Shown piece after piece: positions 31,501 through 61,083 of a stretch of DNA of 64,000 nucleotides; position 1 is the first letter of the stretch, and each line of letters opens with the position of its first letter. The position numbers and the translations under genes were made by a program. Under the pieces are notes generated by a model that saw only the letters and a list, made by a program, of their open reading frames with translations, was not told where the DNA came from and did no database searches. The DNA comes from Piscicola geometra (taxonomy: Eukaryota > Annelida > Clitellata > Hirudinida > Piscicolidae): positions 80,394 through 144,393 of the forward strand of contig OX030960.1 of NCBI GenBank assembly GCA_943735955.1, written 5' to 3'.

Positions 31501-34500
31501 CGTCTTCATCATCGTCGTCTTCATCATCGTCGTCTTCATCATCGTCATCTTCATCATCGTCGTCTTCATCATCGTCGTCTTCATCATCGTCGTCTTCATC
31601 ATCGTCTTCTTCATCATCGTCATCTTCATCATCGTCGTCTTCATCATCTTCATCATCGTCGTCTTCATCATCGTCGTCTTCATCATCGTCGTCTTCATCA
31701 TCGTCGTCTTCATCATCGTCATTTTCATCATCGTCGTCTTCATCATCGTCGTCTTCATCATCGTCGTCTTCATCATCGTCGTCTTCATCATCGTCGTCTT
31801 CATCATCGTCGTCTTCATCATCGTCGTCTTCATCATCGTCGTCTTCATCATCGTCGTCTTCATCATCGTCGTCTTCATCATCGTCATCTTCATCATCGTC
31901 GTCTTCATCATCGTCGTCTTCATCATCGTCGTCTTCATCATCGTCGTCTTCATCATCGTCGTCTTCATCATCGTCATCTTCATCATCGTCGTCTTCATCA
32001 TCGTTGTCTTCATCATCGTCGTCTTCATCATCGTCGTCTTCATCATCGTCGTCTTCATCATCGTCGTCTTCATCATCGTCATCTTCATCATCGTCGTCTT
32101 CATCATCGTCGTCTTCATCATCTTCATCATCGTCGTCTTCATCATCGTCGTCTTCATCATCGTCGTCTTCATCATCGTCGTCTTCATCATCGTCGTCTTC
32201 ATCATCGTCGTCTTCATCATCGTCGTCTTCATCATCGTCGTCTTCATCATCGTCATCTTCATCATCGTCGTCTTCATCATCGTCGTCTTCATCATCTTCA
32301 TCATCGTCGTCTTCATCATCGTCGTCTTCATCATCGTCGTCTTCATCATCGTCGTCTTCATCATCGTCGTCTTCATCATCGTCGTCTTCATCATCGTCGT
32401 CTTCATCATCGTCATCTTCATCATCGTCGTCTTCATCATCGTCGTCTTCATCATCTTCATCATCGTCGTCTTCATCATCGTCGTCTTCATCATCGTCATC
32501 TTCATCATCGTCGTCTTCATCATCGTTGTCTTCATCATCGTCGTCTTCATCATCGTCGTCTTCATCATCGTCGTCTTCATCATCGTTGTCTTCATCATCG
32601 TCGTCTTCATCATCGTCGTCTTCATCATCGTCGTCTTCATCATCGTCGTCTTCATCATCGTCATCTTCATCATTGTCGTCTTCATCATCGTCGTCTTCAT
32701 CATCTTCATCATCGTCGTCTTCATCATCGTCGTCTTCATCATCGTCGTCTTCATCATCGTCGTCTTCATCATCGTCGTCTTCATCATCGTCGTCTTCATC
32801 ATCGTCGTCTTCATCATCGTCGTCTTCATCATCGTCGTCTTCATCATCGTCGTCTTCATCATCGTCGTCTTCATCATCGTCGTCTTCATCATCGTCGTCT
32901 TCATCATCGTCGTCTTCATCATCGTCGTCTTCATCATCGTCGTCTTCATCATCGTCGTCTTCATCATCGTCGTCTTCATCATCGTCGTCTTCATCATCGT
33001 CATCTTCATCATCGTCGTCTTCATCATCGTCGTCTTCATCATCTTCATCATCGTCGTCTTCATCATCGTCGTCTTCATCATCGTCGTCTTCATCATCGTC
33101 GTCTTCATCATCGTCATCTTCATCATCGTCGTCTTCATCATCGTCGTCTTCATCATCTTCATCATCGTCGTCTTCATCATCGTCGTCTTCATCATCGTCG
33201 TCTTCATCATCGTCATTTTCATCATCGTCGTCTTCATCATCGTCGTCTTCATCATCGTCGTCTTCATCATCGTCGTCTTCATCATCGTCGTCTTCATCAT
33301 CGTCGTCTTCATCATCGTCGTCTTCATCATCGTCGTCTTCATCATCGTCGTCTTCATCATCGTCGTCTTCATCATCGTCGTCTTCATCATCGTCGTCTTC
33401 ATCATCGTCGTCTTCATCATCGTCATCTTCATCATCGTCGTCTTCATCATCGTTGTCTTCATCATCGTCGTCTTCATCATCGTCGTCTTCATCATCGTCG
33501 TCTTCATCATCGTCGTCTTCATCATCGTCATCTTCATCATCGTCGTCTTCATCATCGTCGTCTTCATCATCGTCGTCTTCATCATCGTCGTCTTCATCAT
33601 CGTCGTCTTCATCATCGTCGTCTTCATCATCGTCATCTTCATCATCGTCGTCTTCATCATCGTCGTCTTCATCATCTTCATCATCGTCGTCTTCATCATC
33701 GTCGTCTTCATCATCGTCGTCTTCATCATCGTCGTCTTCATCATCGTCGTCTTTATCATCGTCGTCTTCATCATCGTCGTCTTCATCATCGTCGTCTTCA
33801 TCATCGTCATCTTCATCATCGTCGTCTTCATCATCGTCGTCTTCATCATCGTCTTCTTCATCATCGTCATCTTCATCATCGTCATCTTCATCATCGTCGT
33901 CTTCATCATCGTCGTCTTCATCATCTTCATCATCGTCGTCTTCATCATCGTCGTCTTCATCATCGTCGTCTTCATCATCGTCATTTTCATCATCGTCGTC
34001 TTCATCATCGTCGTCTTCATCATCGTCGTCTTCATCATCGTCGTCTTCATCATCGTCGTCTTCATCATCGTCGTCTTCATCATCGTCGTCTTCATCATCG
34101 TCGTCTTCATCATCGTCGTCTTCATCATCGTCGTCTTCATCATCGTCGTCTTCATCATCGTCGTCTTCATCATCGTCGTCTTCATCATCGTCGTCTTCAT
34201 CATCGTCGTCTTCATCATCGTCGTCTTCATCATCGTCGTCTTCATCATCGTCGTCTTCATCATCGTCGTCTTCATCATCATCGTCTTCATCATCGTCGTC
34301 TTCATCATCGTCGTCTTCATCATCGTCGTCTTCATCATCGTCATCTTCATCATCGTCGTCTTCATCATCGTCGTCTTCATCATCTTCATCATCGTCGTCT
34401 TCATCATCGTCGTCTTCATCATCGTCGTCTTCATCATCGTCGTCTTCATCATCGTCATCTTCATCATCGTCGTCTTCATCATCGTCGTCTTCATCATCGT

Positions 34501-37500
34501 CGTCTTCATCATCTTCATCATCGTCGTCTTCATCATCGTCGTCTTCATCATCGTCGTCTTCATCATCGTCATTTTCATCATCGTCGTCTTCATCATCGTC
34601 GTCTTCATCATCGTCGTCTTCATCATCGTCGTCTTCATCATCGTCGTCTTCATCATCGTCGTCTTCATCATCGTCGTCTTTATCATCGTCGTCTTCATCA
34701 TCGTCGTCTTCATCATCGTCGTCTTCATCATCGTCGTCTTCATCATCGTCGTCTTCATCATCGTCGTCTTCATCATCGTCGTCTTCATCATCGTCATCTT
34801 CATCATCGTCGTCTTCATCATCGTTGTCTTCATCATCGTCGTCTTCATCATCGTCGTCTTCATCATCGTCGTCTTCATCATCGTCGTCTTCATCATCGTC
34901 ATCTTCATCATCGTCGTCTTCATCATCGTCGTCTTCATCATCTTCATCATCGTCGTCTTCATCATCGTCGTCTTCATCATCGTCGTCTTCATCATCGTCG
35001 TCTTCATCATCGTCGTCTTCATCATCGTCGTCTTCATCATCGTCGTCTTCATCATCGTCGTCTTCATCATCGTCGTCTTCATCATCGTCGTCTTCATCAT
35101 CGTCGTCTTCATCATCGTCGTCTTCATCATCGTCATCTTCATCATCGTCGTCTTCATCATCGTCGTCTTCATCATCTTCATCATCGTCGTCTTCATCATC
35201 GTCGTCTTCATCATCGTCGTCTTCATCATCGTCGTCTTCATCATCGTCGTCTTCATCATCGTCATTTTCATCATCGTCGTCTTCATCATCGTCTTCTTCA
35301 TCATCGTCATCTTCATCATCGTCGTCTTCATCATCGTCGTCTTCATCATCTTCATCATCGTCGTCTTCATCATCGTCGTCTTCATCATCGTCGTCTTCAT
35401 CATCGTCATTTTCATCATCGTCGTCTTCATCATCGTCGTCTTCATCATCGTCGTCTTCATCATTGTCGTCTTCATCATCGTCGTCTTCATCATCGTCGTC
35501 TTCATCATCGTCGTCTTCATCATCGTCGTCTTCATCATCGTCGTCTTCATCATCGTCGTCTTCATCATCGTCGTCTTCATCATCGTCGTCTTCATCATCG
35601 TCGTCTTCATCATCGTCGTCTTCATCATCGTCATCTTCATCATCGTCGTCTTCATCATCGTCGTCTTCATCATCGTCGTCTTCATCATCGTCGTCTTCAT
35701 CATCGTCGTCTTCATCATCGTCGTCTTCATCATCGTCATCTTCATCATCGTCGTCTTCATCATCGTCGTCTTCATCATCTTCATCATCGTCGTCTTCATC
35801 ATCGTCGTCTTCATCATCGTCGTCTTCATCATCGTCGTCTTCATCATCGTCGTCTTCATCATCGTCGTCTTCATCATCGTCGTCTTCATCATCGTCGTCT
35901 TCATCATCGTCGTCTTCATCATCGTCGTCTTCATCATCGTCGTCTTCATCATCGTCGTCTTCATCATCGTCGTCTTCATCATCTTCATCGTTGTCTTCAT
36001 CATCGTCGTCTTCATCATCGTCGTCTTCATCATCGTCGTCTTCATCATCGTCGTCTTCATCATCGTCGTCTTCATCATCGTCGTCTTCATCATCGTCGTC
36101 TTCATCATCGTCGTCTTCATCATCGTCGTCTTCATCATCGTCGTCTTCATCATCGTCGTCTTCATCATCGTCGTCTTCATCATCGTCGTCTTCATCATCG
36201 TCGTCTTCATCATCGTCGTCTTCATCATCGTCGTCTTCATCATCGTCGTCTTCATCATCGTCATCTTCATCATCGTCGTCTTCATCATCGTCGTCTTCAT
36301 CATCGTCGTCTTCATCATCGTCGTCTTCATCATCGTCGTCTTCATCATCGTCATCTTCATCATCTTCGTCTTCATCATCGTCGTCTTCATCATCGTCATC
36401 TTCATCATCGTCGTCTTCATCATCGTCGTCTTCATCATCTTCATCATCGTCGTCTTCATCATCGTCGTCTTCATCATCGTCGTCTTCATCATCGTCGTCT
36501 TCATCATCGTCGTCTTCATCATCGTCGTCTTCATCATCGTCGTCTTCATCATCGTCGTCTTCATCATCGTCGTCTTCATCATCGTCGTCTTCATCATCGT
36601 CGTCTTCATCATCGTCGTCTTCATCATCGTCGTCTTCATCATCGTCATCTTCATCATCGTCGTCTTCATCATCGTCGTCTTCATCATCGTCGTCTTCATC
36701 ATCGTCGTCTTCATCATCGTCGTCTTCATCATCGTCATCTTCATCATCTTCGTCTTCATCATCGTCGTCTTCATCATCGTCATCTTCATCATCGTCGTCT
36801 TCATCATCGTCGTCTTCATCATCTTCATCATCGTCGTCTTCATCATCGTCGTCTTCATCATCGTCGTCTTCATCATCGTCGTCTTCATCATCGTCGTCTT
36901 CATCATCGTCGTCTTCATCATCGTCGTCTTCATCATCGTCGTCTTCATCATCGTCGTCTTCATCATCGTCGTCTTCATCATCGTCGTCTTCATCATTGTC
37001 GTCTTCATCATCGTCGTCTTCATCATCGTCGTCTTCATCATCGTCGTCTTCATCATCGTCGTCTTCATCATCGTCGTCTTCATCATCGTCGTCTTCATCA
37101 TCGTCGTCTTCATCATCGTCGTCTTCATCATCGTCGTCTTCATCATCGTCGTCTTCATCATCGTCGTCTTCATCATCGTCGTCTTCATCATCGTCGTCTT
37201 CATCATCGTCGTCTTCATCATCGTCGTCTTCATCATCGTCGTCTTCATCATCGTCGTCTTCATCATCGTCGTCTTTATCATCGTCGTCTTCATCATCGTC
37301 GTCTTCACCATCGTCGTCTTCATCATCGTCGTCTTCATCATCGTCGTCTTCATCATCGTCATTTTCATCATCGTCGTCTTCATCATCGTCATCTTCATCA
37401 TCGTCGTCTTCATCATCGTCGTCTTCATCATCGTCGTCTTCATCATCGTCGTCTTCATCATCGTCATCTTCATCATCGTCGTCTTCATCATCTTCATCAT

Positions 37501-38496
37501 CGTCGTCTTCATCATCGTCGTCTTCATCATCGTCGTCTTCATCATCGTCATTTTCATCATCGTCGTCTTCATCATCGTCGTCTTCATCATCGTCGTCTTC
37601 ATCATCGTCGTCTTCATCATCGTCGTCTTCATCATCGTCGTCTTCATCATCGTCGTCTTCATCATCGTCGTCTTCATCATCGTCGTCTTCATCATCGTCG
37701 TCTTCATCATCGTCGTCTTCATCATCGTCGTCTTCATCATCGTCGTCTTCATCATCGTCGTCTTCATCATCGTCGTCTTCATCATCGTCGTCTTCATCAT
37801 CGTCGTCTTCATCATCGTCGTCTTCATCATCGTCATCTTCATCATCGTCGTCTTCATCATCGTCGTCTTCATCATCTTCATCATCGTCGTCTTCATCATC
37901 GTCGTCTTCATCATCGTCGTCTTCATCATCGTCGTCTTCATCATCGTCGTCTTCATCATCGTCGTCTTCATCATCGTCGTCTTCATCATCGTCGTCTTCA
38001 TCATCGTCGTCTTCATCATCGTCGTCTTCATCATCGTCGTCTTCATCATCGTCGTCTTCATCATCGTCGTCTTCATCATCGTCGTCTTCATCATCCTCGT
38101 CTTCATCATCGTCGTCTTCATCATCGTCGTCTTCATCATCGTCGTCTTCATCATCGTCGTCTTCATCATCGTCGTCTTCATCATCGTCGTCTTCATCATC
38201 CTCGTCTTCATCATCGTCGTCTTCATCATCGTCGTCTTCATCATCGTCGTCTTCATCATCGTCGTCTTCATCATCGTCGTCTTCATCATCGTCGTCTTCA
38301 TCATCGTCGTCTTCATCATCGTCGTTTTCATCATCGTCGTCTTCATCATCGTCGTCTTCATCATCGTCGTCTTCATCATCGTCGTCTTCATCATCGTCGT
38401 CTTCATCATCGTCGTCTTCATCATCGTCGTCTTCATCATCGTCGTCTTCATCATCGTCGTCTTCATCATCGTCGTCTTCATCATCGTCGTCTTCAT
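31501..38496 (+). repeat. 15-bp minisatellite GTCGTCTTCATCATC
   Basis: About 7 kb of tandem 15-mers, consensus GTCGTCTTCATCATC, with scattered GTCATCTTC, GTTGTCTTC, GTCATTTTC and GTCTTCTTC variants. Repeated 12-bp units (CTTCATCATCTTCATCATCG context) lack one GTC. On plus, one frame is uninterrupted serine codons and the frame of the next exon reads VVFII. On minus, frames read MMKTT and DDEDD. Nothing else supports coding. The last unit changes from CTTCATCATC to CTTCATCAG, forming the 3' splice site of the TRAPPC12 exon, so the array most likely ends an intron and supplies its pyrimidine-rich tract. Confidence 0.95.
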
Positions 38497-38499
38497 CAG

Positions 38500-38638
38500 T
38501 TGTGGTTCTGTCGCTTCAGCCTGCTGCACCGCCTCTCGCTGCATTCACTGGCGCATAACGAGTGGCAGGCCTTCCGAAATCTCGACACTCCTGACCTCTA
38601 CTACCAGTACAACCAGGCCAAGTATCCGGGAAGTAAGG
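38500..38638 (+). CDS. TRAPPC12: TRAPPC12 internal exon (TRAPP III subunit 12)
   Basis: This exon encodes 46 residues of trafficking protein particle complex subunit 12, which acts in membrane tethering at the ER-Golgi and autophagy steps. It starts LWFCRFSLLHRL and ends with NLDTPDLYY followed by YPGSKG. These match the TRAPPC12 signature LWF-R-ALL-RL, NLD-PDLYY and YPG-GSMVPF that precedes the TPR repeats. The exon is bounded by an AG acceptor (CTTCATCAG at 38,491-38,499) and a consensus donor GTGAGT at 38,639, and it ends in phase 1. The acceptor lies in the last unit of the 15-bp array. Splice sites, frame and homology all agree. The family assignment is from recalled sequence and was not searched. 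Upstream exons are not in the window. Confidence 0.85.
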
Positions 38639-38941
38639 GTGAGTCGTGGAAAGGAGGGAATGTTGAAAGGAAGGGGGTTGAGTGGGGAAGGGGTTGAATG
38701 AAGAGGTGGTTTGCTTGTTAAATGGGAAAGGGGTTATGGGATATGCCCACCACCACCCTCAATATCATCATCATTACCACTATTATCATCATCATCACCA
38801 CCATCTTCTTCATCACCACCACCATCATCCCCATCATCATCATCCCCATCACCACCACCATCATCCCCATCATCTCCATCAACACCACCATCATCATCAT
38901 CATCACCACCATCATCATCATCATCATGCCCTCCCTGCCAG
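38639..38941 (+). other. TRAPPC12: TRAPPC12 intron with CATCAC-type simple repeat
   Basis: This 303-bp intron runs from the GTGAGT donor to the TGCCAG acceptor. From about 38,758 to 38,928 it is nearly all CAT, CAC and CCC triplets (degenerate (ATC)n/(ACC)n), a simple repeat that again lies close to the 3' splice site. Open frames of poly-His, poly-Ser or poly-Ile here are repeat artefacts. Confidence 0.8.
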
Positions 38942-39054
38942 GATCGATGGTGCCTTTCAAGATGCGAGTCTTGCAGGCTCAGCATCTGAGGTACGTGAAG
39001 AAGCCCCAAGACGCCCTCCAACATCTCTGCGCCATCCTCGCCGTCGTCAGGAAG
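38942..39054 (+). CDS. TRAPPC12: TRAPPC12 internal exon, next in order
   Basis: Joined in phase to the previous exon (G + GA), this exon continues with [14 protein letters not shown] and then a helix-like stretch containing PQDALQHL, ending AVVRK. This corresponds to the conserved GSMVPF-MR-L-A segment of TRAPPC12 followed by the region leading into its TPR repeats. The acceptor is CCTGCCAG. The proposed donor AAG|GTCTCT is weaker than consensus and falls right before the (ATCC)n repeat, so the 3' edge is less certain than the 5' edge. No following exon of the gene could be found to the end of the window. The downstream intron would have to contain the LINEs and DNA transposons annotated below, or the gene is broken here. 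Confidence 0.83.
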
Positions 39055-39057
39055 GTC

Positions 39058-39234
39058 TCTCCATCCATCCATCCATCCATCCATCCATCCATCCTTTTAT
39101 CCATCCATCCATCCATTCATTGATCCCTCCATCTATCCATCCAACCATCCATCCCTCCTTCCATCCATCCCTTCATCCATCCATCCTTCCATCCATCTAT
39201 CTATCCATCTATCTATCCATCTATCTATCCATCA
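39058..39234 (+). repeat. (ATCC)n microsatellite, imperfect
   Basis: Tetranucleotide ATCC repeats with TCCTTCC and ATCTATCT interruptions start immediately after the TRAPPC12 exon and end at ATCAG, where the perfect TAGG array begins. Confidence 0.93.
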
Positions 39235-40430
39235 GGTAGGTAGGTAGGTAGGTAGGTAGGTAGGTAGGTAGGTAGGTAGGTAGGTAGGTAGGTAGGTAGG
39301 TAGGTAGGTAGGTAGGTAGGTAGGTAGGTAGGTAGGTAGGTAGGTAGGTAGGTAGGTAGGTAGGTAGGTAGGTAGGTAGGTAGGTAGGTAGGTAGGTAGG
39401 TAGGTAGGTAGGTAGGTAGGTAGGTAGGTAGGTAGGTAGGTAGGTAGGTAGGTAGGTAGGTAGGTAGGTAGGTAGGTAGGTAGGTAGGTAGGTAGGTAGG
39501 TAGGTAGGTAGGTAGGTAGGTAGGTAGGTAGGTAGGTAGGTAGGTAGGTAGGTAGGTAGGTAGGTAGGTAGGTAGGTAGGTAGGTAGGTAGGTAGGTAGG
39601 TAGGTAGGTAGGTAGGTAGGTAGGTAGGTAGGTAGGTAGGTAGGTAGGTAGGTAGGTAGGTAGGTAGGTAGGTAGGTAGGTAGGTAGGTAGGTAGGTAGG
39701 TAGGTAGGTAGGTAGGTAGGTAGGTAGGTAGGTAGGTAGGTAGGTAGGTAGGTAGGTAGGTAGGTAGGTAGGTAGGTAGGTAGGTAGGTAGGTAGGTAGG
39801 TAGGTAGGTAGGTAGGTAGGTAGGTAGGTAGGTAGGTAGGTAGGTAGGTAGGTAGGTAGGTAGGTAGGTAGGTAGGTAGGTAGGTAGGTAGGTAGGTAGG
39901 TAGGTAGGTAGGTAGGTAGGTAGGTAGGTAGGTAGGTAGGTAGGTAGGTAGGTAGGTAGGTAGGTAGGTAGGTAGGTAGGTAGGTAGGTAGGTAGGTAGG
40001 TAGGTAGGTAGGTAGGTAGGTAGGTAGGTAGGTAGGTAGGTAGGTAGGTAGGTAGGTAGGTAGGTAGGTAGGTAGGTAGGTAGGTAGGTAGGTAGGTAGG
40101 TAGGTAGGTAGGTAGGTAGGTAGGTAGGTAGGTAGGTAGGTAGGTAGGTAGGTAGGTAGGTAGGTAGGTAGGTAGGTAGGTAGGTAGGTAGGTAGGTAGG
40201 TAGGTAGGTAGGTAGGTAGGTAGGTAGGTAGGTAGGTAGGTAGGTAGGTAGGTAGGTAGGTAGGTAGGTAGGTAGGTAGGTAGGTAGGTAGGTAGGTAGG
40301 TAGGTAGGTAGGTAGGTAGGTAGGTAGGTAGGTAGGTAGGTAGGTAGGTAGGTAGGTAGGTAGGTAGGTAGGTAGGTAGGTAGGTAGGTAGGTAGGTAGG
40401 TAGGTAGGTAGGTAGGTAGGTAGGTAGGTA
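39235..40430 (-). repeat. Perfect (TAGG)n array, LINE 3' tail
   Basis: About 299 uninterrupted copies of TAGG (CCTA on minus) in 1,196 bp with no visible mismatch. It directly follows the 3' end of the minus-strand LINE at 40,431, so it is read as that element's 3' tail, probably expanded after insertion. The YLPT-repeat protein formed by reading through it is not meaningful. Confidence 0.9.
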
Positions 40431-40433
40431 TAT

Positions 40434-42785
40434 GCCATTCAGTCTGTCGTTACTGAAGTGGAATTCTTGTGGTCTGTGGCTTGTGACTGCTTGGCAGATC
40501 CCTGTTCTCGATAGTTCCTGGTGTAGCGGGGTTAGCTGTGCCCTGAATCCTGTAGCTGCTTCTGCATCAGCCTCGTCGTTTCCGATCAGATAGCAGTGGC
40601 TTGGCACCCAGATGAAGAGAACCTTTTTGTTCATGTTGGTACACTGTGCAGTTAGTTGTGAGATTCGATGGGAGGAGAGAGGGTTGGATGCCATTAGCGA
40701 AAGAAGTGGCTTGCAATCGCACACAATCTTTGCCATGCACCAGTCCTCTCTCTCACTCAACCATTTCAGAGCCTCCTCAACCGCAATTCTTTCAGTGTCC
40801 ATTGGGTTACTCTTGTGACCTGTGGGCTTGTTCCAGTTAGCTACTTTCTGATCCCCTTGGTACACCACCACCGCAGCACCACCATGCTTTGCCACACCTT
40901 GCACCGAGCCGTCAGTGTAGATGGTAAAGTCAGCTTCGCCTTCCTGGGAGATGGCATCTTTAGCTGCTTCCAGTTGCAAGAGATCAGGGTCGTGCTTGCT
41001 AGATTTGGAGTAGCTGATGTATATCGCTTCGTACAATGGGTCTTCTGGGAGGAGTGCCTTTGCTTGGTGAAGGAATTTGGCCCTCCAGCTGTTTTGTTTC
41101 AGCTTCTTGGGGACATGTTTCTCTGCAAGTGACTTCCTCCAGTCTTCCTGCTTGTAGCTCACCCATTTAACAGCCCTTTTGAGAGAAGCCTGATCAAACC
41201 TCGTCTCCATGTTGGCTAGGTCTGCTTCAACGAGAACAGCTTCAGAGGGCGTTGTTGCTGTGAGACAGGTGAGGATTTTGGCAGCACGAAGTTGGGCCCT
41301 CTCGATCTTGGTGATGTGGGTTTTTGGAGTCCAAGGTGTCCATGCAGGGCTGGCGTATTCCATTATGCTCCTTTGCAGTGCACAATATACACTTCTTAGC
41401 CCAGTTCTCTTCCATCCCCACTCCGTTCCTCCGAGGTTGCGGATGATATTGTCCCGTTTCCTTACCTTGTCCACTATCATGTCTGTGTGATGGCCAAAGT
41501 GCAGGAGTCTGTCGTATTTGACTCCAAGAAAGGTCGGGTTCGGTTCGAACGGGAGTGGGATGTTGTTGATGGTGAGCGACGGTTGCCAATTGTGTTCGGA
41601 GACTGCTGTGGAAAAGAAGCTGCACGAGCACTTGTTGTAGTTTAGGGTGAGGCGGTTTACAGAACTCCAATCCTGAACTTTGTTGATTTCGATTTGGAGT
41701 TCTGCCTGGATCTTCAGCTTGTCGTTACCCGTGCGTGCAATTGCTAAATCGTCAGCAAAGGCACACACCGTCGAATCTTCCATAAACTTGCCGAAAAGGT
41801 CGTTTATGTAGATGACGAAGAGTATGGGCGACAGTACTGCTCCTTGAGGTAGTCCAGCCCTGAATACTCTTGGGTTGCTGAGATCTCCGTTGTATTTTGC
41901 CCTGGCTCGACGGTTGACAAACCACCCTTTGATGTAGGCAGTGTAGCGAGGAGGGATGCCGATGTCGACCATTTTGTTGAGCAGCCGTTCTCTCCACACA
42001 GTGTCGAAGGCTCGGCTGTAGTCGTACTGGGTGAGTATGGTGCGTTGCGACGGTTTTGACTGGAACCCATCACTGACTGTTTGCGTGAGACGTAGGCATT
42101 GTTCCGTTGTGTTTCTGTCTGATCTGAACCCCGACTGGTTGTCGCTCAGTATCTGCTTCTTCTCCATCCACCACATCAACCTTGCTTTTATCATCTTTTC
42201 TAGAAGCTTCCCCACCACTGAGGTAAGGCTGATCGGGCGGTAGCTTGACACATCAGCAGGGTTTTTGCCACGTTTCAGGATCGGGATGATGATGGCATCC
42301 CGCCATTGCTGAGGGCACTCGCTGCGATTCCAGCAGATGTTGAATAGTGTCAGCAGGTGTTGTTGTGCACTGCTGGGTAGGTGTTTCAACATGTCGCTGC
42401 TGATGTTGTCAGGTCCGGGGGCTTTGCCTGCGGGGATGGAGCGGATACCTTGCTGGAGCTCTGACAACGTGAATGCCTTCTCGATCTCTTGCTCGGGGAT
42501 CGAGCGGGTGTGGCTGAGGTTTCGATTGATGGCGACCTTAGTTTTCCGATGCTCTTTATCACTCTTGACTTGGCTGATGCTTGCGTATTCCTGAATGAAT
42601 GCGTTCGTACGCGCTTTGCTTGTGATGCAAATGCGGCCTTTGTAAGTGATGGACTTGTCTACGGATGTACTAAGGTCTCCTCTCAAGTTCTTGATCAGCC
42701 GCCACGCCTGTTCTGGGTTCCTAGATTTTTCACTCTTGTCAAGCTTAGATCTCCAGATGCGGTCTTTTGCTTCAAGTTGTTGCAG
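40434..42785 (-). CDS. LINE B reverse transcriptase-RNase H polyprotein (5' partial)
   Basis: The frame is open without stops from the chimeric junction, through EAKDRIWRSKLDK, into the 3' tail. RT motifs in order: GKAPGPDNISSDML (fingers), QSGFRSDRNTTEQ, YDYSRAFDTVW (motif A aspartates), GLPQGAVLSPILF (motif B), FADDLAI (motif C catalytic aspartates) and FLGVKYDRLL. RNase H follows: YTDGSV (first Asp), a conserved ERIAVEEAL (Glu), VCDCKPLL (Asp) and WVPSHC with GNDEADAEA (last Asp). This element would copy its own RNA at a nicked target. It lacks the APE domain, so this copy cannot be autonomous. The absence of stops suggests a young insertion. The natural C-terminus is unclear because the frame reads into the tail. 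Confidence 0.9.
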
Positions 42786-44449
42786 TCGCTGCGGTCGCCC
42801 TTTTTCTTATACAGTGTGACAATCTTGGCATTGCGCATGTCCTGTGAAACTCTAGCTTCTCTCCAACATAGGCAAAGGAGCTTGTGAAGTGGTTCTAGTA
42901 GAGACGGTTTACCGCATTTGATTATTTCTGGTGGGATGCCATCGTCTCCTGGTGCTTTTCCACTCTTTAAGGCATCAATAGCTTTGCTGAGTTCGTCCAT
43001 GGTCGGCTCGACATCCAGCTCTTCCAAGACTGGCAAGTCTTCAATAGCGTCCAGTGCTATCTGAGTCACAGAGTTTTCTTTGGAATAAAGTTCCAGATAG
43101 TGTTCGAGCCACCTTCCCATTTGCTTGTCTTTGTCTGTGATGGTCTCTCCTGATTTGGACTTTAAGGGTGCAGTCTTCTTTGCTGACTTGCCAGTTGCTT
43201 TTTTGATGCCTTCATACATGCTTCTTACGTTGCCAGCGTCTGACGCTTGTTGAATGCTATTTGCCAGTTGTAGCTAATTGTCATTTGCGCAGCGTCGAGC
43301 CGTCTGCTGGGCTTTTCTTCTGGCAGCTTCCAACTCTTCGAAGGTGGACTGACTCGGGTCGCGTTTGTATTCGATCAATGCCTTTCTCTTGGCGTCAATA
43401 ACAGGCTCGAGATCTGCCGCATTCCCTTCGAACCAATCGGTGATCTTGTGTTCCTTTTTACCATACGTGAGTGAAACAGTTCTTAAAATGGTATTCCGGA
43501 GCGAGTTCCATCTGACTTCCGCATTAGGCTCTTGGTCGCAGTGTTGCAGCTCCCCCAGCCCATCTATGAACTCAGGGTTCTTGGCCTGATGGGTGGCCTG
43601 ATAGGTGTTGATTTTCGGCTGGCATTTCTTCTTGGAGAGGTGGAGCCTCTTGGGGCGCAACTTTATTTTTGACGTGATCAGAGAGTGGTCTGTATCGCAA
43701 TCGGCACTATGGTAAGCTCTTGTGCTGCGGAAGTTGTTTAAAGAGTTGTGCCTGGTGATAATCAAGTCCAGTTGATGCCAATGATTTGATCTTGGATGTT
43801 TCCAGGACACCTTGTGACATGCTTTGTTCTGGAAGTACGTGTTTGTTACACACAGGTTGTGGTAGCAACAGAATTCGAGTAGTCTCTGGCCGTTTTTATT
43901 CATATTTCCGATGCCATGGTGAGCCAGCACATCTGGCCATGAGTCGTGGTCAGAACACACACAGGCGTTAAAATCTCCCAGAAGGTAGAGATGTTCGAAA
44001 GCAGGAACTGTGGCAACAATGCTGCTTAGTTGTTCGAAGAATTAATCTTAAGTCTCGGCACTGGCCTGCATGGTAGGTGCATAGATGCACAAAAAATTAG
44101 CAGTGCCAGATGCTGTAAGAAGGCGTAGAGTGAGGATTCTCTCTGTGCCGCGGGAAGGAGGTTCGGACATGCAAAGCAGGGACTTCTTGATGGCGAAGCC
44201 GACTCCGTGTTCCCTGGTCTCCTCTTCTCTTTTCCCTTGCCAAAAGAACGTGTAGTGCTCCTCCCTCAAGGATCCAGACTCCGGAAGACGCGTTTCCTGT
44301 AGGGCTGCAACGTCAACGTTTAGACTGTGCAGCTCATGATCAATGACTGCAGTCTCGCGAAGGTCTTCAATCTCACGAAAGTCATCACTCAGTCCAGTGC
44401 GCATAGTACGTACGTTCCAGCTTGCAATACGGAGAGCTGGAATCTCCAT
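42776..44449 (-). pseudogene. LINE A APE endonuclease plus N-terminal RT, with stops
   Basis: One reading frame starts MEIPALRIASWNVRTMRTG. Endonuclease motifs are ASWNVRTM (metal-binding Asn), LQETRLPE (Glu), LGDFNACV (Asp/Asn) and DTDHSLITSKI (catalytic Asp-His), followed by a linker and the RT start SGKAPGDDGIPPEIIKCG and NAKIVTLYKKKGDRSDCNN. Three in-frame stops interrupt it: two TAA at 44,048-44,050 and 44,042-44,044, and a TAG near 43,271, so the protein is dead. The frame ends at the junction with LINE B, before the palm motifs. The APE fold would nick target DNA to prime reverse transcription. Confidence 0.87.
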
Positions 44450-45240
44450 CTTTTTGTATTTTTATTTGTTTGGTGCGTAAAGATAACAGCCTGCTTGTTG
44501 AGCTGTGCTCTAAGCTCCAGGCACCCACTGAAGCAGGCAGGCCGTGACGGGTAACATCTCATTGACCGGGGGCTGCCCGGCTTAGGACTGGCGGTAGTTA
44601 CCAATGGGACTGCGAGGGTCCCTCCCACCATTGAAGACAACCCGTGGCGTCCAGCTCTAATTGAGCAAGGACTTATAACCCGTAAACTGCTGTTTTCTTG
44701 TTTTTGCTCTCGCCGTAAAGCGAGACTGGAGTGAACATCTCCAGGGCGCTAGCCTGGGCAAAGTGTGTGGAGGTCTTGTGCTGCCCAAACAACAGGACCC
44801 CTCTCTCGGCTTCGTCGTCTAGACTCAAGGGGGTGCAAGCACCACGCTTAGAGCCGACTTGGCTGCAGGAGTTGCCGGAAGGACATCATAGATGACGATT
44901 CACCGTCTTAGGGACTTAGACTCTTGATTTTTCCTCGGGGTTGACTTCCAAAGCCTGTTCCATGAATGGGTAGCCTGCAAGGCAGCAGCGGTTGGTAGTC
45001 AGAGTTTTCCTCCTCCTAGATGGGTTGCCTTCCCGGGCTAACGAGCCCCATCTGCCTGAAGCGACTGGTTTTAAGGCGCCAGTGACCCGTCTTCGCCCCT
45101 TCTCTTGTCAGTAGAAGCAGTTTCGCCACGAGCAGGCCAGGAGTTGGACTAAGTTGTCAGAGGCGGTACAGAGACGCACACCGTGGAAGCTTATCCCCAC
45201 TGCCACCCCTTGGCTATGACAACCTTGGAACTATACCAAG
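44450..45240 (-). other. Presumed 5' UTR of LINE A
   Basis: About 790 bp, distinctly more GC-rich than the flanking sequence to the right, lies upstream of the APE start codon and contains no convincing frame. It has several short inverted segments, for example CCCGGGCTAACGAGCC around 45,035. Assignment rests on position next to the APE frame and on the composition shift. I did not recognise a promoter. Confidence 0.55.
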
Positions 45241-45484: not shown

Positions 45485-46778
45485 AGGATTTGTTGGCCTC
45501 ATAGCCGTCCGACTTCTATTTGCTATTCGGCACAAGTTAACTTCACTTATTTGAGCTACTTGAGGCAGGTCCGGAACTGGAAAAATCTGTTTTCCCTGAC
45601 TAACTCATACACTCGCAGGTTCAAGTGAGTTTTCTCGTGCTGCTGTTTTTACCTGTGTTTAGAAAAATATTTTATTTTCAATTACTTTAATATCAATGAC
45701 GCGCTTACAGAGATGTCGAATGATATTTTAATTATAATGTATAATAGTTAATATTCTTCTATAATTACTTCTCTTTTTTCTAGAATAGAAACAAGTAGTC
45801 CTGGACGCGGTGGGTCTTTGTGACTTAGTGCACCTTTCTTGAAAACACTCCCTTCTTGCTTTATCACAGCTGGACATACAAACTTCTTACTCTTGAGACA
45901 GCATCTCCATTCAATCGTTCCAGATTTTAATGTCCGTTTGTAAATGAACGAATAGCCTTCACTGGAGACTAATATGTTTCGACCTCTCTTCGATCCCCCT
46001 TCCACGATTGTGTACGTAATTGCTCGTTTCGGTAAAATATCATCGTCATTCACAATGCCATCACTGAGATCCCTTAAAAAATTGATGATACAATTATATC
46101 TACCCAAAATTGACAAAATCACTGGAACATATTTCATATCTTCAAATAGATTAATAATAAGAAATTGAAAATGTATTTTTCAAGAAAAAATATTTGATGC
46201 AAACAATAGAAAAAAGCACTAACGATTCTTCCTCTTCGAATCTAGTTTCTAGATTCGCATGTTGATGCAAGTTCGACGTACTATTATCTTCATCCCAATT
46301 CAGCATAGGTTCGTCCATGTTGGGGATAGGCTCTTCTCTGAAAAGGAGTGATGTAAGCAACATAAAACCAAAATGTTAAATTATTGAAAAATCAATTCTA
46401 TATTTATAGTAATATACTGAAAACTTAACTGTTTATATAATATGAGATAGAAATAATATAAATTAAAGATCTCTTACAAATCTTCATATTCTACTTCAGC
46501 AAGTGATTCATCTTTGAGAAATCTGATAATAAAAAATTAACCGATTATTTAATACATATAAAATCTAGATATTCAAAAAATGGAACTAATTGCTTACAAC
46601 TTCTCCTCTTCCACGCGAGAGGTTCCGACATGACGAATATCCAATGTATTGTCGTCGACACCACTGATAACACGAAAATAAAATGTATTTAATATTAGTT
46701 TTACTAGTTATATTATATACCTATAGATAACAATCGTGGCGAAACCGCATCGCTCTGTCGGATTTCGCCGTAAAAAGG
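45485..46778 (-). pseudogene. FLYWCH-domain MULE-type transposase pseudogene, copy 1
   Basis: Multi-exon minus-strand relic. Exons from 5' to 3': from the insertion point to 46,721; 46,663-46,598 (GVDDNTLDIRHV, acidic end); 46,522-46,478 (FLKDESLAEVEYEDL); 46,338-46,224 (EEPIPNMDEPMLNWDEDN, acidic end); 46,072-45,769, a 304-bp exon with the FLYWCH finger (YTIVEGGSKRG, SSEGYSFIYKR, IEWRCCLKSKKFVCPAV); and 45,652 to about 45,485 (VKTAARENS, NLCRIANRSRTAM). The small exons start with 1 nt and end with 2 nt of a codon, and their GT/AG sites agree. The last exon has an in-frame TGA at 45,605-45,607. Downstream MULE catalytic exons are absent. The 5' side is split by the foldback element at 46,779. 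FLYWCH fingers bind DNA, here probably transposon ends. Confidence 0.78.
46770..46778 (+). other. Target-site duplication, left copy (GTAAAAAGG)
   Basis: Nine bases GTAAAAAGG directly abut the left end of the inverted-repeat element. The same nine bases, in the same orientation, directly abut its right end. A 9-bp duplication is typical of MULE insertions and of Drosophila FB-type foldback elements. Confidence 0.85.
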
Positions 46779-46972
46779 AGGTGCATGAAGTTTCCATCAC
46801 TTTTTTCCATCGAAAATTAAAAGTAAGTTATCGGCGAATCAAGTTCAAATTTTTATCTTTAAAAAAATTAATTTTATTATTACAGCTTCCGAAGATGTTG
46901 AAAATAATAATTCTACTGAAAAAATGAAGAAAGTTGTTACTACTAATACTACTAATAAAAAGTTAATTCGAA
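46779..46972 (+). repeat. Distal unique segment of left inverted arm
   Basis: 194 bp, inverted copy at 52,152-52,336. It contains an intron-like stretch on plus: donor GTAAGT at 46,823 and acceptor TTATTACAG ending at 46,885. The following open run reads SEDVENNNSTEKMKK and ends at a stop in the junction with the first 172-bp unit. Upstream there is no in-phase start codon, so coding is doubtful. It could be the residue of the first exons of a parent element. Confidence 0.8.
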
Positions 46973-49900
46973 CTAATTGAGTAAAGTGAGTTTATTTTTC
47001 ACTGCAATAAAGATTAATCATTCCTTTATATGATGTGAAAATTTTGATGCTCTAGCAAATTGTGCAACAGAACAGCAAACCCGCCAAAATTATGCCTATG
47101 TTGCATATTTCAATAAGATCACTGTTTTATCAATCACGTGGCAACTAATTGAGTAAAGTGAGTTTATTTTTCACTGCAATAAAGATTAATCATTCCTTTA
47201 TATGATGTGAAAATTTTGATGCTCTAGCAAATTGTGCAACAGAACAGCAAACCCGCCAAAATTATGCCTATGTTGCATATTTCAATAAGATCACTGTTTT
47301 ATCAATCACGTGGCAACTAAATGAGTAAAGTGAGTTTATTTTTCACTGCAATAAAGATTAATCATTCCTTTATATGATGTGAAAATTTTGATGCTCTAGC
47401 AAATTGTGCAACAGAACAGCAAACCCGCCAAAATTATGCCTATGTTGCATATTTCAATAAGATCACTGTTTTATCAATCACGTGGCAACTAATTGAGTAA
47501 AGTGAGTTTATTTTGCACTGCAATGAAGAATAATCATTCCTTTATATGATGTGAAAATTTTGATGTTCTAGCAAATTGTGCAACAGAACAGCAAACCCGC
47601 CAAAATTATGCCTATGTTGCATGTTTCAATAAGATCACTGATTTATCAATCACGTGGCAACTAAATGAGTAAAGTGAGTTTATTTTGCACTGCAATGAAG
47701 AATAATCATTCCTTTATATGATGTGAAAATTTTGATGTTCTAGCAAATTGTGCAACAGAACAGCAAACCCGCCAAAATTATGCCTATGTTGCATGTTTCA
47801 ATAAGATCACTGTTTTATCAATCACGTGGCAACTAAATGAGTAAAGTGAGTTTATTTTTCACTGCAATAAAGATTAATCATTCCTTTATATGATGTGAAA
47901 ATTTTGATGCTCTAGCAAATTGTGCAACAGAACAGCAAACCCGCCAAAATTATGCCTATGTTGCATGTTTCAATAAGATCACTGTTTTATCAATCACGTG
48001 GCAACTAAATGAGTAAAGTGAGTTTATTTTTTACTGCAATAAAGATTAATCATTCCTTTATATGATGTGAAAATTTTGATGTTCTAGCAAATTGTGCAAC
48101 AGAACAGCAAACCCGCCAAAATTATGCCTATGTTGCATATTTCAATAAGATCACTGTTTTATCAATCACGTGGCAACTAATTGAGTAAAGTGAGTTTATT
48201 TTGCACTGCAATGAAGAATAATCATTCCTTTATATGATGTGAAAATTTTGATGCTCTAGCAAATTGTGCAACAGAACAGCAAACCCGCCAAAATTATGCC
48301 TATGTTGCATATTTCAATAAGATCACTGTTTTATCAATCACGTGGCAACTAATTGAGTAAAGTGAGTTTATTTTTCACTGCAATAAAGATTAATCATTCC
48401 TTTATATGATGTGAAAATTTTGATGCTCTAGCAAATTGTGCAACAGAACAGCAAACCCGCCAAAATTATGCCTATGTTGCATATTTCAATAAGATCACTG
48501 TTTTATCAATCACGTGGCAACTAAATGAGTAAAGTGAGTTTATTTTTCACTGCAATAAAGATTAATCATTCCTTTATATGATGTGAAAATTTTGATGCTC
48601 TAGCAAATTGTGCAACAGAACAGCAAACCCGCCAAAATTATGCCTATGTTGCATATTTCAATAAGATCACTGTTTTATCAATCACGTGGCAACTAATTGA
48701 GTAAAGTGAGTTTATTTTGCACTGCAATGAAGAATAATCATTCCTTTATATGATGTGAAAATTTTGATGTTCTAGCAAATTGTGCAACAGAACAGCAAAC
48801 CCGCCAAAATTATGCCTATGTTGCATGTTTCAATAAGATCACTGTTTTATCAATCACGTGGCAACTAAATGAGTAAAGTGAGTTTATTTTGAACTGCAAT
48901 GAAGAATAATCATTCCTTTATATGATGTGAAAATTTTGATGTTCTAGCAAATTGTGCAACAGAACAGCAAACCCGCCAAAATTATGCCTATGTTGCATGT
49001 TTCAATAAGATCACTGTTTTATCAATCACGTGGCAACTAAATGAGTAAAGTGAGTTTATTTTTCACTGCAATAAAGATTAATCATTCCTTTATATGATGT
49101 GAAAATTTTGATGCTCTAGCAAATTGTGCAACAGAACAGCAAACCCGCCAAAATTATGCCTATGTTGCATGTTTCAATAAGATCACTGTTTTATCAATCA
49201 CGTGGCAACTAAATGAGTAAAGTGAGTTTATTTTTTACTGCAATAAAGATTAATCATTCCTTTATATGATGTGAAAATTTTGATGTTCTAGCAAATTGTG
49301 CAACAGAACAGCAAACCCGCCAAAATTATGCCTATGTTGCATATTTCAATAAGATCACTGTTTTATCAATCACGTGGCAACTAATTGAGTAAAGTGAGTT
49401 TATTTTGCACTGCAATGAAGAATAATCATTCCTTTATATGATGTGAAAATTTTGATGCTCTAGCAAATTGTGCAACAGAACAGCAAACCCGCCAAAATTA
49501 TGCCTATGTTGCATATTTCAATAAGATCACTGTTTTATCAATCACGTGGCAACTAATTGAGTAAAGTGAGTTTATTTTTCACTGCAATAAAGATTAATCA
49601 TTCCTTTATATGATGTGAAAATTTTGATGCTCTAGCAAATTGTGCAACAGAACAGCAAACCCGCCAAAATTATGCCTATGTTGCATATTTCAATAAGATC
49701 ACTGTTTTATCAATCACGTGGCAACTAAATGAGTAAAGTGAGTTTATTTTTCACTGCAATAAAGATTAATCATTCCTTTATATGATGTGAAAATTTTGAT
49801 GCTCTAGCAAATTGTGCAACAGAACAGCAAACCCGCCAAAATTATGCCTATGTTGCATATTTCAATAAGATCACTGTTTTATCAATCACGTGGCAACTAA

Positions 49901-51165
49901 TTGAGTAAAGTGAGTTTATTTTGCACTGCAATGAAGAATAATCATTCCTTTATATGATGTGAAAATTTTGATGTTCTAGCAAATTGTGCAACAGAACAGC
50001 AAACCCGCCAAAATTATGCCTATGTTGCATGTTTCAATAAGATCACTGTTTTATCAATCACGTGGCAACTAAATGAGTAAAGTGAGTTTATTTTGCACTG
50101 CAATGAAGAATAATCATTCCTTTATATGATGTGAAAATTTTGATGTTCTAGCAAATTGTGCAACAGAACAGCAAACCCGCCAAAATTATGCCTATGTTGC
50201 ATGTTTCAATAAGATCACTGTTTTATCAATCACGTGGCAACTAAATGAGTAAAGTGAGTTTATTTTTCACTGCAATAAAGATTAATCATTCCTTTATATG
50301 ATGTGAAAATTTTGATGCTCTAGCAAATTGTGCAACAGAACAGCAAACCCGCCAAAATTATGCCTATGTTGCATGTTTCAATAAGATCACTGTTTTATCA
50401 ATCACGTGGCAACTAAATGAGTAAAGTGAGTTTATTTTTTACTGCAATAAAGATTAATCATTCCTTTATATGATGTGAAAATTTTGATGTTCTAGCAAAT
50501 TGTGCAACAGAACAGCAAACCCGCCAAAATTATGCCTATGTTGCATGTTTCAATAAGATCACTGTTTTATCAATCACGTGGCAACTAAATGAGTAAAGTG
50601 AGTTTATTTTTCACTGCAATAAAGATTAATCATTCCTTTATATGATGTGAAAATTTTGATGCTCTAGCAAATTGTGCAACAGAACAGCAAACCCGCCAAA
50701 ATTATGCCTATGTTGCATATTTCAATAAGATCACTGTTTTATCAATCACGTGGTAACTAATTGAGTAAAGTGAGTTTATTTTGCACTGCAATGAAGATTA
50801 ATCATTCTTTTATATAATGTAAAAATTTTGATGCTCTAGCAAATTGTGCAACAGAACAGCAAACCCGCCAAAATTATGCCTATGTTGCATATTTCAATAA
50901 GATCACTGTTTTATCAATCACGTGGCAACTAATTGAGTAAAGTGAGTTTATTTTGCACTGCAATGAAGAATAATCATTCCTTTATATGATGTGAAAATTT
51001 TGATGTTCTAGCAAATTGTGCAACAGAACAGCAAACCCGCCAAAATTATGCCTATGTTGCATATTTCAATAAGATCACTGTTTTATCAATCACGTGGTAA
51101 CTAATTGAGTAAAGTGAGTTTATTTTGCACTGCAATGAAGATTAATCATTCTTTTATATAATGTC
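46973..51165 (+). repeat. 172-bp tandem array, left arm (24.4 units, higher-order structure)
   Basis: Units counted from GTAAAGTGAG start at 46,981 and recur every 172 bp without indels to 51,109 (24 x 172 = 4,128). Every unit carries a CACGTG palindrome within ATCACGTGG. Two main variants alternate: TTTTTCACTGCAATAAAG with GATGCTC, and TTTTGCACTGCAATGAAG mostly with GATGTTC. A third has TTTTTTACTGC. The variant order repeats every seven units: 47,153, 48,357 and 49,561 begin equivalent 1,204-bp blocks. Confidence 0.95.
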
Positions 51166-51209
51166 ACGGACAAAATGGCACGGACAAAATGTCATGAGTT
51201 TTGTTAGTT

Positions 51210-51280
<71 letters not shown>
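51166..51280 (+). other. Foldback centre with (TAG)n microsatellite
   Basis: Non-palindromic spacer between the two arms. It holds two direct copies of CACGGACAAAATG (from 51,166 and 51,179), then GTCATGAG, then about 25 perfect TAG triplets (51,208-51,283) that run into the first right-arm unit. It would be the loop if a single strand folds back. Confidence 0.85.
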
Positions 51281-51284
<4 letters not shown>

Positions 51285-52151
51285 ATTTTATTGAAATATG
51301 CAACACAGGCGGAATTTTGGCGGGTTTGCTGTTCTGTTTCACAATTTGCTAGAGCATCAAAATTTTTACATTATATAAAAGAATGATTAATCTTCATTGC
51401 AGTGCAAAATAAACTCACTTTACTCAATTAGTTACCACGTGATTGATAAAACAGTGATCTTATTGAAATATGCAACATAGGCATAATTTTGGCGGGTTTG
51501 CTGTTCTGTTTCACAATTTGCTAGAGCATCAAAATTTTTACATTATATAAAAGAATGATTAATCTTCATTGCAGTGCAAAATAAACTCACTTTACTCAAT
51601 TAGTTGCCACGTGATTGATAAAACAGTGATCTTATTGAAATATGCAACATAGGCATAATTTTGGCGGGTTTGCTGTTCTGTTGCACAATTTGCTAGAGCA
51701 TCAAAATTTTCACATCATATAAAGGAATGATTAATCTTTATTGCAGTGAAAAATAAACTCACTTTACTCAATTAGTTGCCACGTGATTGATAAAACAGTG
51801 ATCTTATTGAAATATGCAACATAGGCATAATTTTGGCGGGTTTGCTGTTCTGTTGCACAATTTGCTAGAGCATCAAAATTTTTACATTATATAAAAGTAT
51901 GATTAATCTTCATTGCAGTGCAAAATAAACTCACTTTACTCAATTAGTTGCCACGTGATTGATAAAACAGTGATCTTATTGAAATATGCAACATAGGCAT
52001 AATTTTGGCGGGTTTGCTGTTCTGTTGCACAATTTGCTAGAGCATCAAAATTTTTACATTATATAAAGGAATGATTAATCTTCATTGCAGTGCAAAATAA
52101 ACTCACTTTACTCAATTAGTTGCCACGTGATTGATAAAACAGTGATCTTTA
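51281..52151 (-). repeat. 172-bp tandem array, right arm (about 5 units, inverted)
   Basis: The reverse complement of the left-arm unit. CTCACTTTAC occurs at 51,414, 51,586, 51,758, 51,930 and 52,102, spaced exactly 172 bp. Most units share the TTATATAATGTAAAAATTTT variant that on the left occurs only in units near the centre (from 50,765 and 51,109). The right arm has not undergone the left arm's seven-unit amplification. Confidence 0.95.
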
Positions 52152-52336
52152 TTCGAATTAACTTTTTATTAGTAGTAACAACTTTCTTCATTTTTTCAGT
52201 AGAATTATTATTTTCAACATCTTCGGAAGCTGTAATAATAAAATTAATTTTTTTAAAGATAAAAATTTGAACTTGATTCGCCGATAACTTACTTTTAATT
52301 TTCGATGGAAAAAAGTGATGGAAACTTCATACACCT
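52152..52336 (-). repeat. Distal unique segment of right inverted arm
   Basis: 185 bp, the inverted copy of 46,779-46,972. It lacks one ACTACTAAT 9-mer and has one transition near the tip (CATACACCT against AGGTGCATG), otherwise identical by eye. Confidence 0.88.
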
Positions 52337-52345
52337 GTAAAAAGG
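52337..52345 (+). other. Target-site duplication, right copy (GTAAAAAGG)
   Basis: The second copy of the nine-base duplication that flanks the foldback element. Removing the element and one copy rejoins the flanking sequence. Confidence 0.85.
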
Positions 52346-52768
52346 GTTAAAACACCCTTGAATATTTTACATTCGTTGGCCAGTTCGCAAAGTTTGAATG
52401 TCTTTCGACATAATTGAGATTTAAGAAATATTTTTATTCATCGTTTAAAAAAGTAATTTTTCATCGCAAACCCCGTCAAAATCTTATTGCAAAACTCACT
52501 TTCATTTCTTTTGAGCAAAGTTTTATTGATATAGTATACTGGTAATTAATTATTCAACTAAATTGTAAAAAGTCAACCTTAATGCACATAGTTATACAAT
52601 TTTCTTTTTATGAATTAAAGTAATAGAATAACTTTTTAACTATTTGATATAATAAAAAAGTACAAACTTATTAAGAATTGGTCGAGCAAAAGCTCCAATT
52701 TGAGTTTTGACATAAAGTAGAATAAAAAAGTTTTACAAATTATTGGGACGGATAAATAATTCACTTAC
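52346..52768. other. AT-rich interval, no gene seen
   Basis: Right flank of the foldback insertion. It should be the 5' side of FLYWCH pseudogene copy 1 (minus strand). No supported exon was seen until 52,769. Confidence 0.4.
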
Positions 52769-60263: not shown

Positions 60264-61083
60264 TAATATATTTATTTGGCATATATTTATTTGGCCTATA
60301 TTTGTTTGGCATATATTTATTTGGCATATATTTGTTTGGCATATATTTGTTTGGCATATATTTGTTTGGCATATATTTTTTTGGCATATATTTTTTTGGC
60401 ATATATTTGTTTGGCATATATTTAATTTGGCATATATTTATTTGGCATATATTTATTTGGCATATATTTGTTAGGCATATATTTATTTGGCATATATTTG
60501 TTTGGCATATATTTGTTTGGCATATATTTGTTTGGCATATATTTGTTTGGCATATATTTGTTTGGCATATATTTGTTTGGCATATATTTGTTTGGCATTT
60601 ATTTGTTTGGCATATATTTAATTTGGCATATATTTATTTGGCATATATTTATTTGGCATATATTTGTTTGGCATAGATTTATTTGGCATATATTTGTTTG
60701 GCATATATTTATTTGGCATATATTTATTTGGCATATATTTATTTGGCATATATTTATTTGGCATACATTTAATTTGGCATTTATTTATTTGGCATTTATT
60801 TATTTGGCATATATTTATTTGGCATATATTTGTTTGGCATATATTTATTTGGCATATATTTAATTGGCATATATTTATTTGGCATATATTTATTTGGCAT
60901 ATATTTATTTGGCATATATTTATTTGGCATATATTTATTTTGCATATATTTATTTGGCATATATTTATTTGGCATATATTTATTTGGCATATATTTATTT
61001 GGCATATATTTATTTAGCATATATTTATTTTGCATATATTTGTTTGGCATATATTTATTTGGCATAGATTTATTTGGCATAAA
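60264..61083 (+). repeat. 15-bp AT-rich minisatellite
   Basis: About 54 copies of GGCATATATTTATTT, often with GTTT for ATTT in the first half and a few CATTTATT, CATAGATT or 16-bp units. The open frames that read GIYLF or MPNKY repeats are artefacts. The array sits 5' of FLYWCH-MULE copy 2. Confidence 0.95.

Follow-up and report, generated by a model that had tools for sequence, protein, structure and literature searches.

In a 64,000-nucleotide stretch of the genome of the leech Piscicola geometra (the window: GenBank assembly GCA_943735955.1, contig OX030960.1, positions 80,394-144,393 of the forward strand), the 5,558 bp at 46779-52336 are a mobile element of foldback architecture, with long inverted arms built of direct subrepeats. 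We propose that it is a non-autonomous form, with foldback arms, derived from a Rehavkus-type (Mutator-related) DNA transposon, propose a mechanism for its origin, and put the probability of this reading at roughly 0.88. The leech elements are probably a new family of this known kind and not a new kind. All searches of the genome used the 171-Mb assembly of 66 contigs, in which the window is bases 80,394-144,393 of contig 6, and all counts from them are lower bounds.

Gene-bearing copies occur in the leech genome beside empty sites and beside a gene-less foldback derivative whose derived tip features recur in one of them. Since these occur together, the origin and growth of foldback arms (block-wise array growth, exchange between arms and possibly the multiplication of a region upstream of the transposase gene) can be tested in one system.

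Structure of the window element

The element is flanked by a perfect 9-bp target-site duplication, GTAAAAAGG, at 46770-46778 on the left and 52337-52345 on the right. One given pair of 9-mers would match at random with a chance of about 4e-6, and since other copies, elsewhere in the genome, end in the same tips, the duplication lies far beyond chance. Within it stand a left tip of 192 bp (46779-46970, + strand), which begins AGGTGCATGAAGTTTCC, and a right tip of 183 bp (52154-52336, - strand); one substitution and one 9-bp indel separate them, the right tip carrying the deletion. The left tip is 100% identical to the left tip of a longer element at C12:7491436-7501041 (the C12 element), and the identity with this copy, which lies on another chromosome, covers the left 322 bp of the window element.

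Inward-facing 172-bp units (68% AT) follow each tip. The left array (46971-51164, + strand) has 24 full units and a 65-bp piece; Tandem Repeats Finder (TRF) reports a 172-bp period, 24.4 copies, 97% matches and 0% indels, and the 24 unit starts located by BLAST, from 46972 to 50928, are all exactly 172 bp apart. Its units differ on average at 3.8 of 172 positions and are arranged as a 7-unit (1,204-bp) higher-order repeat. The right array (51281-52149, - strand) comprises a 152-bp partial unit, four full units and a short remainder (TRF: 5.1 inverted copies of 172 bp, 97% matches). Between the arrays lie an apparent deletion junction with a 46-bp remnant of the gene-proximal inner segment (51160-51210, - strand), which contains the CACGGACAAAATG motif and is reversed relative to the C12 element, and a (TAG)24 simple repeat (51211-51282). 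A similar repeat closes the gene-proximal arm on its inner side in the C12 element and in the copy at C3:13725354. A search for similarity between tip and unit gave only matches of 7 bp and 11 bp (E 2.9), which are not significant.

A preliminary description, made from the letters of the window, had given the 5.56-kb extent of the element, its asymmetric inward arms of about 24 against 5 units, its near-identical distal arms and its perfect 9-bp duplication, and all of these stand. The distal arm that it measured at 185 bp is present at lengths of 192 and 183 bp, and of its exact units at constant spacing the spacing holds while the exactness does not. It had also called the element young, which the identity with a copy on another chromosome fits.

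Other copies, target duplications and empty sites

At least 42 tip matches, the window itself included, are present among the matches listed, the count being a lower bound because 40 of 46 candidates were scored. Two facing tips are present in nine copies: the window element and those at C12:7491436, C3:528217, C3:13725354, C9:7132728, C4:2988380, C6:7161361, C7:8307257 and C11:1715658. At C6:7161361 the left end reads N, so that the duplication can be assessed in eight; perfect 9-bp duplications, each of a different 9-mer, flank seven of these eight.

Three copies have peculiarities of their own. That at C7:8307257-8311350 is a mini copy of 487 bp; it has a perfect 9-bp duplication and lies inside a large inverted duplication that repeats one tip. 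The 26-kb copy at C4:2988380-3014599 has tips and a perfect 9-bp duplication around a foreign filling, which includes frames that look by eye like reverse transcriptase and an N stretch. At C8:143094 one tip was seen, inserted in sequence that is, up to the tip, about 88% like the interior of other family members.

For six copies (window, C9, C3:13725354, C3:528217, C12 and C4) the joined flanks were searched against the genome. Alignments crossing the junction were found for four of the six, at least 25 being listed (20 for the window, 3 for C9 and 1 each for the two C3 copies). This search gave no empty site for the C12 element, and the sole match to the C4 flanks extends just 15 bp past the junction and was not counted as one. 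The target 9-mer is single in all eight empty-site paralogues fetched from the 25 listed, with one mismatch in the C3:528217 case, and for the window element GTAAAAAGG occurs once in each of the four aligned. These uninterrupted paralogues indicate a dispersed repeat as the insertion site of the window copy, whose flanks (46400-46778 and 52346-52600) match at least 20 listed copies of that repeat without the insertion. Outside the element, the host repeat has a FLYWCH zinc-finger-like frame (45751-46179, - strand; PF04500, 22.4 bits against a cut-off of 23.6), and a PF10551 match, in several cases a weak one, lies no more than 4 kb from 9 of the 20 copies listed. For both reasons the repeat is probably another Mutator-like element (MULE).

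Gene-bearing relatives and the putative transposase

The preliminary description had suggested looking for further copies with 9-bp duplications, for empty sites and for a longer element that has such tips and a gene resembling that of a transposase. The last of these was found as well, in the C12 element. Gene-bearing copies measure 9.6-11.1 kb and have 172-bp units in both arms; the arrays adjoin both tips in the C12, C9 and C3:13725354 copies. The C12 element (9.6 kb) contains an open frame of 989 codons, 949 from the likely start. The C9 and C3:13725354 copies have the same gene with interruptions, and the C3:528217 copy has its first 420 residues only.

A search of 5.8 billion proteins with the C12 protein returned four relatives, 25-29% identical and none named Rehavkus, and a profile search from the five-protein alignment added no further protein. 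D383 (in LYFDATG), D455, C499xxH502 and E664 do not vary among the five sequences aligned; this D-D-CxxH-E order is that of the catalytic residues in Mutator-like and hAT transposases. A Ulp1 protease domain scores above the Pfam cut-off in two of the four relatives, and the C-terminal end of the leech protein aligns to the Ulp1 domain of these two, with Asn where both have Asp. After the C12 frame an 82-bp GT-AG intron is predicted, followed by an in-frame exon (L009:5843-6097) with a PHD finger (PF00628, 28.4 bits against a cut-off of 24). The PHD motif is also present in C9 and, shortened, in C3:13725354. A fragment of the putative transposase (residues 484-531) is repeated downstream of the gene in three copies, at C12:7497216-7497359, C9:7141689-7141832 and C3:13728890-13729033.

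Derivation of the window copy

The 9-bp tip deletion occurs in 2 of the 22 tips compared, the right tips of the C12 element and of the window element. The units of the two elements also correspond tip by tip, with differences of 1.56% between the right arms and 2.08% between the left arms, against 3.12-3.55% crosswise. The window element would thus appear, from these sequence comparisons, to derive from a C12-like copy and to have lost the gene. The gene-proximal arm has (TAG)n with the CACGGACAAAATG motif as its inner marker; this is in the left arm of the C12 element and in the right arm of the window element. Since the marker is on the opposite arm although the units match tip by tip, an inversion of the interior relative to C12, the closest full-length relative, by exchange between the inverted arms is the simplest reading, as foldback structures predict. 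The left array ends at base 65 of a unit, where it joins the inner segment, and AATGT is common to both sides. This break and the shared AATGT make the loss of the gene look like an internal deletion by end joining at a 5-bp microhomology. Block-wise unequal exchange or slippage explains the growth of the left array, because units seven apart are identical in 9 of 17 pairs, with an exact run of 1,203 bp, versus 1 of 23 pairs of adjacent units.

We propose that a transposase from a full-length copy such as the C12 element would bind the tips, and possibly the units, and mobilise the window copy in trans, by cut-and-paste and a staggered cut of 9 bp. That copy would have lost its gene by internal deletion at the microhomology, its interior would have been turned over relative to the tips by exchange between the inverted arms, and its left array would have expanded in 7-unit blocks by unequal exchange or replication slippage. 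The unit itself may at first have directly preceded the transposase gene, or a second gene with the same N-terminal part, and may later have been amplified in both arms.

Units upstream of genes

The least expected point is the place of diverged units, which directly precede the transposase gene and a second gene, here gene B. In the C12 element two diverged partial units, in the same orientation, occupy 2626-2843, and the likely ATG is at 2923. The first ~120 residues of the C12 protein recur elsewhere in the genome. Gene B joins this N-terminal part to a different C-terminal part and was read at two loci, C12:118000-124000 (L027:780-2522, - strand, 581 codons) and C16:5303700-5306700 (L054:899-2533, + strand, 545 codons), each with diverged ~172-bp units just upstream; the Pfam matches of the former frame are weak and below the cut-offs.

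Eleven upstream regions were examined: that of the C12 element, those of the two gene-B loci, which were picked in the knowledge of a unit match, and eight fetched without such knowledge. Arrays of units are present in five of the eleven, namely the C12 element, both gene-B loci, C7:4074231 and C10:5241814. The last two, identified by their N-terminal match alone, are the only array loci among the eight. In the rest of that set, C1:9689 and C2:11883 have only a 72-74-bp piece of the unit, C9:8581 has a 49-bp match on the opposite strand, and no unit was found upstream at C3:3403, C11:935 and C7:4982. N-terminal identity is 79-80% at the C7 and C10 array loci, 72% and 47% at the loci with a partial piece, and 44-48% at the other four. 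As arrays accompany 79-80% identity and none was found at 44-48%, unit and N-terminal domain co-occur in closer relatives only. We infer that the unit started out upstream of a gene and only afterwards came to fill the arms, and the N-terminal domain may bind to it.

Assignment to Rehavkus and alternatives

Rehavkus transposons are described, in the available text of a 2019 account, as having 9-bp duplications, tips of 26-400 bp, one open reading frame, a PHD finger, a minisatellite before the 3' tip, and hosts among Arthropoda and Annelida; few were then known, from Repbase only (PMC6446971). In the accessible part of a 2026 survey of arthropod MULEs, Rehavkus serves as an outgroup (PMC13359780), and for Rehavkus-1_TC of Tribolium castaneum (Repbase, 2006) the available description gives ~164-bp tandem units in inverted ends. 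The leech elements show these traits: 9-bp duplications at seven of the eight testable two-ended copies, a PHD finger above cut-off in the putative transposase (through predicted splicing), tandem repeats beside the 3' tip (indeed at both tips in C12, C9 and C3:13725354), unique tips of 183-192 bp, the whole arms with arrays being longer, and an annelid host. On the mitochondrial contig of the assembly an ND2 protein is encoded that has 99% identity, over 85%, to the ND2 of Piscicola geometra. The HR of Rehavkus-1_HR presumably stands for another leech, Helobdella robusta. The Rehavkus-type reading is based on the duplications, the PHD finger, the conserved, putatively catalytic D-D-CxxH-E residues and the ~164-bp units of Rehavkus-1_TC. 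In the open-licence literature, no combination of Rehavkus with leech, of foldback with transposase and PHD finger, or of foldback with leech and transposon was found.

A long unit and arrays in both ends of an element are already known in kind, since the units of Rehavkus-1_TC (~164 bp), Tetris (~220 bp) and Galileo F (~210 bp) are, in the published text available, of comparable length; the preliminary claim of an unusually long subrepeat is not supported. The element, which that description named as its best candidate for an undescribed mobile one, is indeed mobile and probably of a new family, not of a new kind. Its likeness to FB and Galileo elements holds for the foldback architecture, which does not define a clade, while a gene-less Rehavkus-type derivative takes the place of the Galileo-like part.

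Several points weigh against this assignment. The Rehavkus traits were matched by published description only. The 949-aa frame has no Pfam match at E up to 10, neither to the MULE domain PF10551 nor to Ulp1. An AlphaFold model of the relative P0004, made with four sequences, reached a predicted local distance difference test score (pLDDT) of 31.5 and is unusable, so that the putative DDE assignment of the C12 protein draws on aligned residues only. At the diverged, 449-bp copy C11:1715658-1716106, one of the eight testable, no matching 9-mer was found; 25 of the 42 listed tip matches have no facing partner among the matches listed; and there is no direct sign of current movement.

Long, repetitive and unequal arms, in a window that also contains large satellites, could suggest a satellite array that was misassembled or went through an inverted segmental duplication, with no transposon involved. 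The perfect 9-bp duplication, the uninterrupted site paralogues and the copies with the same tips on other chromosomes make this very improbable, as does the 76-fold HiFi with Hi-C given in the accessible text of the genome note. A further rival, also quite unlikely, makes the element a Mutator foldback of the Phantom (FLYWCH) type, as Tm1 of root-knot nematodes is, with the genome's PF10551 MULE transposases driving its movement. Tm1 has, in the text available, foldback arms and mostly 9-bp duplications (PMC3169594), at least 95 PF10551 matches occur in the leech genome, and the window element sits in a FLYWCH-like repeat. However, that repeat is an insertion target that exists without the element, and the gene in the copies that share the element's tips is a different one, which has a PHD finger but matches neither PF10551 nor FLYWCH; Phantom membership was dropped. 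Membership of the Galileo/P-superfamily foldback elements, which the unequal ~210-bp arm repeats of Galileo F would recommend (PMC3573991, in the part accessible), seems hardly credible and was likewise dropped. The 949-aa frame has no Pfam match to a THAP or P-element transposase domain, and the PHD finger is present. Target duplications of Galileo are 7 bp, against 9 bp in the leech.

Two further readings concern the role of the units within the same element. The arms may be an amplified upstream control region of the transposase, with unit and N-terminal domain forming a module common to transposase and gene B and foldback arms arising by multiplication of the unit. Because the module is common to the transposase and a second gene family, the unit would perhaps be the binding site, or promoter, of the N-terminal domain. 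We offer this tentatively, as a possibility with the odds somewhat against it; a link between an arm unit and the region upstream of a transposase gene was not found in the parts of the open-licence literature that were searched (Repbase Reports lay outside that search). To the units being neutral, with no role in binding or expression and spread by array recombination alone, we would give only slightly under an even chance. The higher-order repeat and the copy-number differences are such as neutral unequal exchange would produce, tip and unit have no significant similarity, and upstream arrays were found in just two of the eight regions fetched without foreknowledge; the diverged, same-orientation units just upstream of the transposase ATG and of gene B speak against neutrality.

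Other features of the window

Long tandem arrays occupy window positions 1-31300, with a 20-bp unit over 27.8 kb and then a 10-bp unit over 3.4 kb. Further arrays, at 31501-40430 and 60266-61081, consist of 15-bp units, over 7 kb in one case and in 54 copies in the other, and of (AGGT)299 at 100% matches. On the - strand, frames at 40503-44461 resemble in translation a LINE-type (long interspersed element) endonuclease and reverse transcriptase.

Comparison with known systems

Like the leech element, Drosophila FB has foldback arms of subrepeats and 9-bp duplications, the FB subrepeats being much shorter, and NOF is grouped with Rehavkus as MULE-NOF in RepeatMasker. Galileo F of Drosophila mojavensis shares tandem arm repeats (~210 bp) with copy numbers unequal between arms, whereas the Galileo transposase, in the published text available, belongs to the P superfamily (PMC3573991). 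Tm1 of Meloidogyne resembles the leech family in its composite foldback arms, mostly 9-bp duplications, and gene-bearing and gene-less copies, but differs, as far as its description is accessible, in its nematode host and in a FLYWCH + PF10551 (Phantom-like) transposase (PMC3169594). Tetris of Drosophila virilis has tips, AT-rich (~70%) arrays of ~220-bp units, an inner domain, a non-autonomous nature and 8-10-bp duplications, a layout similar to that in the leech. The available part of its description reports no transposase, whereas a probable one is identified here, and a 37-bp stretch joining tip and unit, of which none was found in the leech (PMC4079207).

Rehavkus-1_TC, to which the leech element is likened by description only, has a beetle host and units of ~164 bp; the window copy has no gene, and one of its arms holds 24 units of 172 bp; the two elements share tandem units in inverted ends. 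The published table row for the Rehavkus group lists no Ulp1-like protein end, such as the leech protein has by alignment only. In that same available description the group shares with the leech elements 9-bp duplications, the PHD finger, repeats at the 3' tip, tip length and an annelid host.

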